Source: Dyella thiooxydans (GTDB lineage Bacteria > Pseudomonadota > Gammaproteobacteria > Xanthomonadales > Rhodanobacteraceae). From it: a stretch of DNA of 64,000 nt. Made by a program: the position numbers and the translations under genes. Where the stretch lies: contig NZ_CP014841.1 of NCBI RefSeq assembly GCF_001641285.1, forward strand, positions 1,426,001-1,490,000, in the 5' to 3' direction. Below are positions 29,010 to 30,785 of the stretch, one piece after another; position 1 is the stretch's first letter; each line of letters begins with the position of its first letter. The notes under the pieces are model-generated. The model worked only from the letters and a program-made list of their open reading frames with translations. It was not told the DNA's origin and ran no database searches.

Positions 29010-29240
29010 GCTTTCGTCCGCCGTCGGCGCCCGAGTCACTTTCTCTTGGGTCGCCAAGAGAAAGTAACCAAAGAGAAGGCGACCCTCCTCGGCACTTGCC
29101 GGGCATGCTGCCCGGCAAGTCCGTGAGCCGCGGCCGGGCTTTTCGACAGTGCATCCATGCACTGGCGAAAAGGCATCGGCATCCCTGCCGATGCCCCTGC
29201 GGGCCTGATCGTCCACGACTCACTGCCTCACAAGGGAGGT
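29010..29240 (-). repeat. structured repeat, copy 1 (A(N)GGA-loop hairpin element)
   Basis: About 230 bp, in minus orientation, with the same order of hairpins as copies 2 and 3. Positions: stem 0 at 29172-29195 (9 bp, loop AGGGAT on the minus strand), stem A at 29147-29164 (6 bp, loop ATGGAT), stem B at 29093-29119 (11 bp), stem C at 29035-29068 (GTTACTTTCTCTTGG paired with CCAAGAGAAAGTGAC), stem D at 29019-29029 (CGCC/GGCG). Linkers between stems are conserved in sequence with the other copies; stems are not, but pairing is kept. Lies between the hypothetical membrane protein gene and copy 2, in divergent orientation to copy 2. Confidence 0.8.
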
Positions 29241-29469
29241 GGGGATCAAAAGCAAGGGCAACGGCCAAAGCCAAAGCGACAGCAACGGCAACGGCAACGG
29301 CAACGGCAACGGCGACGATGACGGCGACCAAACCGCGGGAGCGGTAACAGCGGCAATAACAGCGACCACCGCCTCAGCAACAGCATCCGCACGGACAACA
29401 ACGCAAAGGCGATGGTGATCGCGTGAGCGATCGCCGAGCCCGGGGAGGCGCGTAGCGCGCTGCCTTTGA
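29241..29469. other. intergenic stretch with hexanucleotide microsatellite
   Basis: Gene-free stretch between two oppositely oriented repeat copies. It holds five perfect CAACGG units at 29283-29312, flanked by imperfect units (CAAGGG, CAAAGC, CGACGG). The right half is AT-richer (GCAATAACAGCGACC) with no convincing ORF. Slippage at the hexamer could change spacing but not a known reading frame. Confidence 0.7.
29283..29312. repeat. (CAACGG)5 microsatellite
   Basis: Five perfect tandem hexamers, continuing imperfectly for about 20 bp on each side. On the minus strand it would encode alternating Val-Ala, but that frame has no start or homology. Confidence 0.85.
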
Positions 29470-29715
29470 ACTTCCCTCCCCTCTGCAGCGGCAGGTGGGC
29501 GAAGGAAAAGCCCGAAGGGTGGCCGGCATGGATGCCGGCCAGTTTGGCGTCAGGGCAGGAGGCCCTGTCGACAAACCCCGTAGCCCACCTGCGAACCTCG
29601 CCGGTCATAGACCGGCGAGGCGCGGAAGCGGGGTGGCCTTTCTCTTGGTTACTTCTCTTTGGCCAAGCAAAGAGAAGTGACTCGGCCTCCGCAGGAGGAC
29701 GAAATTGCTCTTCTC
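29470..29715 (+). repeat. structured repeat, copy 2 (A(N)GGA-loop hairpin element)
   Basis: About 245 bp, plus orientation. Begins TTCCCTCCCCTCTGCAGCGG as in copy 3. Hairpins: 29497-29513 (GGGC/GCCC, loop GAAGGAAAA), stem 0 29520-29541 (loop ATGGAT), stem A 29551-29567 (CAGGGC/GCCCTG, loop AGGAG), stem B 29596-29620 (11 bp, loop ATA), stem C 29648-29681 (14 bp with one G-T), stem D 29686-29698 (CCTCC/GGAGG). After it comes ACGAAATTGCTCTT, matched by ACGAAGCCGCTCTT in copy 3. Upstream of the membrane protein gene at 29866. Confidence 0.85.
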
Positions 29716-29865
29716 CATTGAATCATCCAGGCCAAGAAGGGGGGCAGCAGAGGCAGCGGTGTCATTCGGAATGAAGCCCATGGACAATGCCGGGCAGTTG
29801 CATCGACGATGACGCAGGGCAACGCGTCAGCGCCCAGCGGGCCATCGCGAATCAGGGAAGAATCC

Positions 29866-30477
29866 ATGGACACCAGGCGAAGGAGCTTCATCGAGCAATT
29901 CGATGCCATGCCGACCAACCTCCTGCTGCACCGTTACAAACAGGGCGGCCTCGTGCCCGAAGCTGCCGCGGCGCTCCTGGACGTGCTCGAAAGCAGGGGT
30001 TACTCCCGCGAGAAAGCAGATGAGCAACTGCAACTTGCAGAAACTGCCGCCATTGAGAAGGCCGTCGCGAAGCTGGAAGCCACCGAAAGAGCGCGCGCTC
30101 GAGCTGCCCGCCTGTCCGTGGATCCGGTACTGAAGCGCCTGCGCGTGCTCCTGTGGAGCATCGTCGTCCCGGTCGTCATGTTCTTTGTCCTGTTGGCCAT
30201 CCCTCTGCTGGGGAACTTCATCGTCATCGAAGGCGCGAGTCGGCTCGGCTGCAATCTGGGGGAGAACGCAGTTCACCCCTGCTTCGTCCTCGGCCATGAC
30301 ATGGGGAGCTTCGTCTATGGCTACCTGGTAGACATCTTCGTCCTCGGCGCCTTCAACCCTGTTTTCTCGGCAGAGCTTTTCGTGAAGTTCCTGCAAAGCA
30401 CGGCTGGAATCCTGTGGATGCTTGGCATCGCAGCAATCATCCTTGCCTGGAGAATACGGCGGCATTCGCTCTGTTGA
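29866..30477 (+). CDS. hypothetical membrane protein
   Basis: 203 residues. N-terminal 85 residues are soluble with a probable coiled coil (EKADEQLQLAETAAIEKAVAKLEATERARAR), then two hydrophobic segments (LLWSIVVPVVMFFVLLAIPL and GILWMLGIAAIILAW) flanking a Cys-containing extracytoplasmic loop (GCNLGENAVHPCFVLGHD). Start at the ATG at 29866 with GGGAAGA upstream; an earlier in-frame ATG at 29809 is less likely. The codon use is less GC-biased than the surroundings, and the gene is bracketed by repeat copies 2 and 3, which suggests a recently acquired accessory gene. No family recognised. Confidence 0.7.
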   Translation: MDTRRRSFIEQFDAMPTNLLLHRYKQGGLVPEAAAALLDVLESRGYSREKADEQLQLAETAAIEKAVAKLEATERARARAARLSVDPVLKRLRVLLWSIVVPVVMFFVLLAIPLLGNFIVIEGASRLGCNLGENAVHPCFVLGHDMGSFVYGYLVDIFVLGAFNPVFSAELFVKFLQSTAGILWMLGIAAIILAWRIRRHSLC

Positions 30478-30537
30478 GGTGAGCCAAAACATTCCCGCAG
30501 CACATCGAGCCCTATCGTGCGCGCAACCGCGCGCCGC

Positions 30538-30785
30538 TCTTCCCTCCCCTCTGCAGCGGCGGCCGGGCGGAGGATCAGCCCGAAGGGTGGCCGGCAGGGA
30601 TGCCGGCCAGTTTGGCGTCAGTCCATGGATGGACTGTCGACAAACCCCGTAGCCCGGACGCGGACCTCCCGGGCCGCAGGCACGGGAGGCGCGGAAGCGG
30701 GGTGGCCTCTCTTTTGGTTACTTTTCTCTGGCCACACAGAGAAAAGTGACTCGGCCTCCGGAGGAGGACGAAGCCGCTCTTGGCT
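30538..30785 (+). repeat. structured repeat, copy 3 (A(N)GGA-loop hairpin element)
   Basis: About 245 bp, plus orientation. Hairpins: 30564-30582 (CGGGC/GCCCG, loop GGAGGATCA), stem 0 30588-30609 (8 bp, loop AGGGAT), stem A 30619-30636 (CAGTCC/GGACTG, loop ATGGAT), stem B 30665-30689 (CCTCCCG/CGGGAGG outer), stem C 30717-30750 (14 bp), stem D 30755-30767 (CCTCC/GGAGG). Between stems the linkers GTCGACAAACCCCGTAGCCC and GCGCGGAAGCGGGGTGGCC are identical to copy 2. A REP-type palindrome follows at 30820. Confidence 0.85.

Follow-up and report, generated by a model that had tools for sequence, protein, structure and literature searches.

A dispersed structured repeat of Dyella thiooxydans that reads as an RNA with paired CsrA-type loops and a triple-helix pseudoknot

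Introduction

The decoy RNAs CsrB/CsrC and RsmX/Y/Z come from regulated genes that contain numerous GGA sites as well as terminators, and C-A-(N)-GGA-N-G is the consensus of a CsrA/RsmE-type site. TwoAYGGAY (Rfam RF01731, clan CL00106; gathering cut-off, 43 bits) has the Rfam type 'Cis-reg', whereas the table of Weinberg 2010 (PMC2864571), which lists human gut, gamma-Proteobacteria, and Clostridiales for it, marks it as probably not cis-regulatory; CsrA binding was proposed for it in December 2014 (PMC4333381). REP, REPIN, and BIME repeats are described as tagged palindromes of 20–40 bp (PMC3733652). In this study, we analyzed a window of 64,000 nucleotides of Dyella thiooxydans DNA (contig NZ_CP014841.1, positions 1,426,001 to 1,490,000), in which an original prediction, made from the letters alone, had described three copies of a structured repeat of approximately 240 nt. 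All three copies (c1, c2, and c3; Table 1) were found where it had placed them and on the strands it had given. The identity of c2 and c3 was 81 and 92% in two blocks, and that of c1 with the others was approximately 71–75%.

The explanation that we regard as fairly probable overall is a dispersed structured RNA in which a 5' domain that may dock CsrA is joined to a 3' domain with a triple helix. Each copy would encode an RNA of approximately 240 nt belonging to a large dispersed family. Its 5' domain would be a long closed helix, P1/P2, with two adjacent A(N)GGA hairpins, P3 and P4, fit for one CsrA/RsmA dimer. In the 3' domain, the strand S1 would pair with the loop of P6 to form an H-type pseudoknot, and the pyrimidine linker L1 would run along the major groove of P6 in the same direction as the purine strand, with U·A-U and C+·G-C triples; this topology is that of the telomerase RNA pseudoknot. 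The hairpin P7 would close the element.

Results

Covariation of three strands in the 3' domain

L1, the pyrimidine linker 5' of P6, follows the order of the P6 purine strand when both are read 5' to 3', with U for A and C for G; a parallel third strand must repeat the order of the purine strand. The match was tested at positions 3–8 of 73 distinct linker/stem combinations, positions 1–2 being omitted because the search pattern forced them. L1 matched the purine strand at 303 of 351 positions, against a permuted mean of 183.8 (sd 7.6; maximum, 212 in 5000 permutations). By group, the matches were 62/75 in the family of the window and near relatives (permuted maximum, 55), 64/72 in Pseudomonadaceae (54), 53/61 in Burkholderiales (46), and 164/182 in other groups (125). 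Neighbor pairs were then formed greedily by 5'-domain similarity, each element being used once and pairs without a stem or linker difference being dropped. Among the resulting 65 pairs, L1 showed the corresponding U/C change for 98 of the 105 A/G differences in the stem and lacked it for 7; of 223 positions with an unchanged stem, 15 differed in L1. With positions 1–2 included, 898 of 960 positions agreed at parallel offset 0, the other parallel offsets reaching at most 0.66 and the best antiparallel one 0.73; a stem G faced a linker C in 153 of 171 cases and a stem A did so in 10 of 789. Where a pair was inverted and its 3' strand had U, L1 had G in 9 of 13 cases, which we liken to the known G·TA triplet.

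P6 was paired in 98.3% of cells over 43 diverse 3' domains, and 7 of its 14 pairs changed on both sides. S1, the 5' part of the linker, formed a mean longest helix of 4.27 bp with the P6 loop, against 3.30 bp after permutation (maximum, 3.53), and a helix of at least 4 bp was present in 125 of 168 unique cases. An H-type pseudoknot has this order, S1-L1-P6-loop, and in such a fold L1 occupies the major groove, parallel to the 3' strand. We read the 3' domain as an H-type pseudoknot in which three covarying strands form a major-groove triple helix. Stem C of the original prediction makes up two strands of this apparent three-stranded pseudoknot. An excess of G·U over A·C would name the strand that folds, and P6 had 73 G·U and 2 A·C; over the whole element the counts were 75 to 18 in Pseudomonadaceae and 51 to 18 in Xanthomonadaceae.

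In the literature searched, we recognized neither this 3' domain nor any bacterial family of triple helices that covary. The 73 distinct linker/stem combinations would be strong comparative evidence of an RNA triple helix and offer natural variants for biophysics.

Fold and covariation of the whole element

When each copy was compared with 200 dinucleotide shuffles, 0 of 200 shuffles folded as well as any of the copies (z = −6.01, −4.90, and −7.64). When 75 copies were aligned together with MAFFT, the outer helices were not recovered, and for this reason lineage alignments were used; they consisted of copies with at least one GGA hairpin, thinned for similarity, and contained 38 sequences (window family and near relatives), 18 sequences (Pseudomonadaceae), and 11 sequences (Xanthomonadaceae). 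As the null, substitutions were reshuffled on a FastTree tree in 200 rounds starting from the same reconstructed root. In the three alignments, respectively, 88.8, 90.6, and 91.2% of cells were paired (null maxima, 59.4, 70.2, and 67.8%), and 429, 153, and 70 cells were doubly changed (null maxima, 151, 62, and 30). The original prediction had held that the stems differ between copies yet stay paired, and had named covariation above phylogenetic expectation as a check; both were borne out, far above the tree-based null in all three alignments.

The long outer stem P1/P2 around the two hairpins was present in folds of c1–c3 and covaried in the lineage alignments, P2 having 83 doubly changed cells. 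An extra GGGC/GCCC hairpin carrying AAGGA or GAGGA, which had been claimed for c2 and c3, appeared in no minimum-energy fold made: the GGGC paired with the GCCC of the long-range helix P2 in c2 and in one c3 fold, and a slightly shorter c3 stretch folded without P2 and without the extra hairpin.

GGA loops and csrA

The six loops of stems 0 and A of the original prediction are all A(N)GGA, as it had stated: CAGGGATG and CATGGATG in c1, CATGGATG and CAGGAGG in c2, and CAGGGATG and CATGGATG in c3. AUGGAU stands in one hairpin per copy and AGGGAU or AGGAG in the other, so that the loops are not strictly AYGGAY. A GNRA tetraloop reading was rejected, as loop size varies while A(N)GGA stays. In a sample of 141 non-redundant copies out of 204, A(N)GGA occurred in loop context in 165 of 829 hairpins vs. 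153 of 3974 in five shuffle rounds, and these hairpins clustered approximately 126 and 95 nt 5' of P6. A laxer test gave two A(N)GGA hairpins in 128 of 245 hits, one in 30, and none in 87, overlapping loci being counted more than once among the 245. A second class, with one hairpin, an internal loop UGUCUGAG...CGAGUU, and no GGA pair, accounted for 23 of the 245 hits, and 3 more had both features. This class (loci L047, L072, L096, L130, L191, L199–L201, and others) was nearly exclusive with the GGA class.

A search for csrA (PF02599) that began from 67 genome identifiers covered 64 genomes, of which 62 were classed in a table made by hand; G449 and G450, in which P6 stood only at a contig edge, were left unclassed, and the GGA class of each genome was read from the copies examined, which are not every copy of the genome. 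Genomes that carry any GGA hairpin had csrA in 27 of 29 cases and those with two had it in 19 of 20, vs. 16 of 33 among those with none. The respective Fisher p values for the association were 0.0002 and 0.0007, statistics that ignore phylogeny. The paired CsrA/RsmA-type loops proposed originally thus gain support, GGA loops tending to go with csrA in counts not controlled for phylogeny. Tens of two-site copies per genome could change the level of free CsrA and would link a repeat family to a global regulator.

Relation to TwoAYGGAY

In the window there was no TwoAYGGAY match at the gathering cut-off, and none at E ≤ 10 over positions 28900–30900; loci L001–L006 (E ≤ 1) and the genomes G000 (the window genome) to G003 and G005 had none. 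In homologs, the matching place gave 7 hits above the cut-off in 5 of 18 loci and 0 of 10 in another set of loci; 11 of 44 genomes were over the cut-off and 14 were at E ≤ 0.001. Because the window copies lie below the cut-off and homologs above it, the 5' half of the window element is, by sequence comparison, a divergent relative of TwoAYGGAY, and we do not file it as a member. The original remark that this was not a named RNA needs amending in view of these homologs. Weak Rfam hits in the window (SorX, Pseudomon-groES, RsmY, sX7, and microRNA) were judged to be chance. In the order of a Ruminiclostridium metagenome-assembled genome (MAG), TwoAYGGAY was found in 0 of 197, a count that carries no information since controls gave no match either.

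P6 lay downstream in 28 of 30 TwoAYGGAY loci, which were fetched from a longer list and found without using P6. Fourteen of the 28 were exact and 14 were variants recognized by eye, one case being interrupted; in some of the by-eye variants, otherwise invariant base pairs were exchanged on both sides. Of the remaining two loci, one was truncated and one ended at a contig end. What appears to be new is that the RNA extends past TwoAYGGAY into a 3' domain with a predicted triple-helix pseudoknot; a known but unexplained Rfam motif would be the 5' half of a larger dispersed RNA in the homologs examined.

Distribution, pairing, and genomic setting

The window genome (4.23 Mb) had 8 BLAST matches to c2, 7 exact P6-pattern hits, and 11 matches to the 3'-domain covariance model at E ≤ 0.001. 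Model R1 of this domain, built from 43 of 52 thinned sequences with nine left out by choice, had matches in 22 of 40 relatives, with a range of 0–67 per genome; the top genomes had 67 (G015), 64 (G005), 49 (G017), and 48 (G010). With E ≤ 1e-5 and stricter filters, it matched 29 of the 249 phylum genomes searched, 28 of these belonging to the class. The exact P6 pattern occurred in 12 of 40 relatives and 19 of 369 genomes of the class, reversed-pattern controls giving 0, and in at least 118 stretches of GTDB contigs. Among the matches listed were records of Xanthomonas, Stenotrophomonas, Lysobacter, Dyella, Rhodanobacter, Pseudomonas, and Azotobacter, also of Methylobacter, Thiobacillus, Methylophilus, Cupriavidus, Rhizobacter, and others, and a few titled Ruminiclostridium or Clostridia, Alistipes, Flavisolibacter, and Cystobacterineae. 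In loci L119, L122, L050, and L105, from Alistipes, Flavisolibacter, Ruminiclostridium, and Clostridia records, the linker and stem matched, which may reflect horizontal spread or mis-binning. When c2 alone served as query, there was one match among 72,556 plasmid records, to an Aeromonas record of 4.9 Mb, and none among 50,697 phage records; the P6 pattern occurred in 5 stretches of viral contigs, and some copies lay at contig ends. Selection for structure together with dispersal in the manner of a repeat family, as originally proposed, agrees with the many copies per genome and the covariation.

Of 30 pairs of neighbors less than 1 kb apart, 24 were head-to-head (minus left, plus right), 4 were tandem on the plus strand, 1 was tandem on the minus strand, and 1 was tail-to-tail. 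The unit of c1, spacer, and c2 (29010–29712) re-aligned whole at G000:C1:393489-394208 (82%) and G002:C63:42569-43279 (83%); since pair and spacer were found again whole, the pair appears to be copied as a unit in this genus. Neither c3 nor a copy at 226.9 kb had a partner by BLAST or by pattern. The pair unit has defined inverted ends, like a miniature inverted-repeat transposable element, and the tails beyond P7 vary. In G451, of the same genus as G005, the site of one G005 pair was empty, with 55 bp vs. 852 bp between flanks that matched at approximately 80%, a divergence that hides any target-site duplication; the element is thus present in one of the two species at this site and absent from the other. 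In Dyella relatives (L253, L254, L256, and L261), P7 was followed by another hairpin and tail units of approximately 45 nt, sometimes in tandem.

Gene context was surveyed at loci with a GC content of at least 55% and both neighbors within 700 bp, by a simple frame caller of our own. The 22 pairs lay in 10 convergent, 10 tandem, and 2 divergent gaps, and the 62 single copies, turned forward, in 24 ++, 18 +−, 14 −−, and 6 −+ gaps. Widely spaced copies in L072 enclose a reading frame that we take to be nitric-oxide-reductase-like; inside or beside such copies in L119, L196, and L105, no transposase was recognized by eye.

Features of the window

The features are collected in Table 1. All three copies point towards downstream frames. 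Six terminator-like sites (shuffle mean, 2.5) were found, each on the minus strand; c1 contains four of them and the spacer the other two.

Table 1. Positions in the window of the three copies and of their parts
Feature	Position	Strand	Remark
c1-spacer-c2 head-to-head pair	29010..29712		apparent dispersal unit; end is the P7 foot, ...CGAAA
c1, complete element with 5' domain, predicted triple-helix pseudoknot of the 3' domain, and P7	29010..29240	-	repeat comparison, fold
c1 P3 hairpin, CsrA-type loop CAGGGAUG	29172..29195	-	predicted fold
c1 P4 hairpin, CsrA-type loop CAUGGAUG	29140..29171	-	predicted fold
c1 P5 hairpin (stem B of the original prediction)	29094..29120	-	predicted fold
c1 pseudoknot strand S1 GGUCGCC	29078..29084	-	7-bp complement to P6 loop GGCGACC, 29049-29055
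c1 L1 third strand UUCUCUUU	29070..29077	-	parallel to P6 purine strand AAGAGAAA
c1 P6 stem (stem C of the original prediction), duplex of triple helix	29035..29068	-	predicted fold
c1 P7 hairpin (stem D of the original prediction)	29014..29034	-	predicted fold
Low-complexity spacer, c1 to c2	29246..29469		consensus scan: no sigma-70-like promoter
c2, complete element	29470..29715	+	repeat comparison, fold
c2 P1 5' strand CCCC	29478..29481	+	pairs with GGGG 29630-29633 in fold
c2 P2 5' strand	29491..29500	+	pairs with 29583-29592; P3 and P4 enclosed
c2 P3 hairpin, loop CAUGGAUG	29521..29540	+	predicted fold
c2 P4 hairpin, loop CAGGAGG	29542..29576	+	predicted fold
c2 P5 hairpin	29596..29620	+	predicted fold
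c2 pseudoknot strand S1 UGGCC	29634..29638	+	complements P6-loop GGCCA, 29661-29665
c2 L1 third strand UUUCUCUU	29639..29646	+	parallel to purine strand AAAGAGAA
c2 P6 stem	29648..29681	+	predicted fold
c2 P7 hairpin	29682..29702	+	predicted fold
c3, complete element	30538..30785	+	no head-to-head partner by BLAST or pattern
c3 P3 hairpin, loop CAGGGAUG	30589..30608	+	predicted fold
c3 P4 hairpin, loop CAUGGAUG	30610..30645	+	predicted fold
c3 P5 hairpin	30665..30689	+	predicted fold
c3 pseudoknot strand S1 GUGGCC	30702..30707	+	complements P6-loop GGCCAC, 30730-30735
c3 L1 third strand UCUCUUUU	30708..30715	+	parallel to purine strand AGAGAAAA
c3 P6 stem	30717..30750	+	predicted fold
c3 P7 hairpin	30751..30771	+	predicted fold

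Part of the spacer (29246–29345) is GGCAAC-type simple sequence, and like tracts flank copies in several other genera. Between c2 and c3, positions 29866–30474 hold a reading frame of 203 aa, the DNA of which is also in G001; the frame had no match in Pfam (searched in a longer form) or NCBIfam. A listed frame of 381 aa (28186–29331, minus strand) crosses c1 and the spacer, and its 5' part is probably non-coding; the element may account for the short reading frames listed over the copies. A palindromic REP-type repeat of approximately 34 bp lies at 30818–30852 and at many sites in the four genomes of the genus.

Discussion

Under the explanation that we favor, a dispersed structured RNA, the DNA, which has no evident coding capacity, spreads within genomes and often does so as two copies head-to-head. 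Most likely, the triple helix would render the transcribed RNA compact and resistant to nucleases, and where the host has csrA the RNA would hold one CsrA dimer, the many copies acting as a diffuse CsrA sink or as a hitch-hiker. Transcription, CsrA binding, a stabilizing role of the triple helix, and effects on the host, if any, are what we infer from the comparisons above. The interpretation given originally stood as to structure, dispersal, and CsrA-type loops, but not as to a leader element or an unnamed RNA; it had missed the pseudoknot with its triple helix, the head-to-head pair as a unit, and the GGA-less relatives.

Several points weigh against such an RNA. Every claim about RNA here rests on comparative sequence, and the fold would equally suit single-stranded DNA. 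The lineage structures were derived from the very alignments tested, which favors those structures, and outside P6 in the window's relatives there were 52 G·U vs. 71 A·C and thus no G·U excess. No transcript was seen, a consensus scan of the window copies, with other promoter types outside its scope, found 0 sigma-70-like promoters, and no terminator-like site followed P7 of any window copy. The triple-helix test was weak in Xanthomonadaceae, where 33/35 was reached by 28 of 5000 permutations, and inverted C-G stem pairs had no fixed partner in L1 (18 C, 16 T, and 5 G of 39). S1 was weaker than the triple helix, with 65.6% paired cells in fixed columns over the 43 3' domains, and its pairs changed on both sides numbered 13 vs. 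12.1 in shuffles (173/500), the other four measures exceeding the shuffles. It lay inside the permuted range in two of six groups, namely Burkholderiales (3.79; permuted maximum, 4.11) and six Methylophilaceae/Thiobacillus cases (4.67; maximum, 4.83). The csrA association is confounded by phylogeny, 14 of the 19 csrA-less classed genomes being beta-proteobacteria by record title; other csrA-less genomes include G441 (Salinisphaera) and G316, and the GGA-bearing MAGs G416 and G431 are without csrA. Finally, 16 csrA-positive genomes have copies lacking GGA, so that CsrA is not essential to the element. Relatives without GGA loops, some of them in csrA-less hosts, suggest that CsrA binding is not the sole function; as the element persists without GGA loops, and even without csrA, its core may be the pseudoknot rather than CsrA titration.

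That the element is purely selfish DNA is possible, though we consider it doubtful: its folds would act in single-stranded DNA, as do REP and attC hairpins that a mobilizing enzyme recognizes, the pyrimidine mirror could form DNA triplexes, and RNA would be unneeded. The high copy number with copies at contig ends, the recurrence of the head-to-head pair as a unit, the preference for convergent and tandem gaps, the absence of a promoter in the consensus scan, and the retention of the element in csrA-less hosts would fit such DNA. However, the long-range P1/P2 helix, the S1 pseudoknot, and the csrA-associated GGA loops follow RNA logic, the U·G pair of P6 fits one strand only (73 G·U to 2 A·C), and the single plasmid record and 0 phage records obtained with c2 are few for a mobile element. 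Y1_Tnp, the transposase of the REP type, also showed no association: 15 of the 22 element-bearing relatives had it, as did 13 of the 18 that lack the element.

A CsrA/RsmA sponge selected by the host, as a multi-copy counterpart of CsrB/RsmZ, is unlikely in our judgment. It would account for the paired A(N)GGA hairpins, present in 128 of the 245 hits if repeats from overlapping loci are included, for the csrA association, and for the place of RsmY in clan CL00106, and it accords with the earlier CsrA proposal for TwoAYGGAY (PMC4333381), but it would sit poorly with a number of matches that ranges from 0 to 67 over 40 relatives, with GGA-less copies in 16 csrA-positive genomes, and with the lack of a promoter found or of a terminator after P7. 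We consider it very improbable that the element acts in cis as a 5' leader or 3' untranslated region for a neighboring gene: the three window copies face downstream frames, single copies lie most often in sense between tandem genes (24/62), and the Rfam type of TwoAYGGAY is 'Cis-reg', but just 2 of 22 pairs lie between divergent genes, which is why the leader-element idea of the original prediction was rejected, and the table of Weinberg 2010 (PMC2864571) again points the other way. A retroposed bacterial SINE-like (short interspersed nuclear element-like) element, copied via its structured 3' end by a reverse transcriptase, is scarcely credible: the common 3' module with differing 5' domains, the tandem tail units of Dyella relatives, and the telomerase-like topology would favor it, but RVT_1 showed no association, 4 of the 22 element-bearing relatives and 5 of the 18 others having it and none of the four highest-copy genomes.

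Beyond the dispersed structured RNA of the window, we see about an even chance that a superfamily of bacterial mobile RNAs exists, with a telomerase-like pseudoknot, three-strand covariation, and exchangeable 5' domains, distributed over Gamma- and Beta-proteobacteria with outliers labeled as other phyla, in which the CsrA of the host protects or positions the element RNA. The 5' domain in such a superfamily would be a dock for a CsrA dimer mainly in csrA hosts, and the UGUCUGAG...CGAGUU module or others elsewhere.

Among described systems, TwoAYGGAY shares with the window element two adjacent hairpins with AYGGAY-type loops within a long outer stem, but its model stops before L1/P6 in the matches seen, leaving the predicted 3' pseudoknot and P7 outside it, and the dispersal as pairs and the GGA-less variants have no counterpart in the passages of PMC2864571 and PMC4333381 that bear on it. 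CsrB/CsrC and RsmX/Y/Z likewise present GGA loops on hairpins, and clan CL00106 is common to TwoAYGGAY and RsmY, whereas the window element has two sites per copy, many copies, and no promoter found. REP, REPIN, and BIME repeats are also dispersed, often as inverted neighbors, and mostly lie 3' of genes; unlike them, the window element has several domains over approximately 240 nt and no association with a Y1 transposase, and a REP/REPIN mobilized by RAYT, a palindrome with a GTAG/CGTC tag, was ruled out by this length and because Y1_Tnp was not found in 7 of the 22 element-bearing relatives. The telomerase RNA pseudoknot, the ENE and MALAT1 triple helices, SAM-II, and preQ1 resemble the predicted 3' domain in an H-type topology in which a loop of pyrimidines runs along the major groove in the direction of the purine strand of the stem and forms U·A-U and C+·G-C triples; the SAM-II and preQ1 riboswitch pseudoknots show such folds in bacteria. 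We claim neither a ligand nor common ancestry with these RNAs, from which the window element differs in that its putative third strand tracks the stem by covariation and that its copies are many and dispersed.

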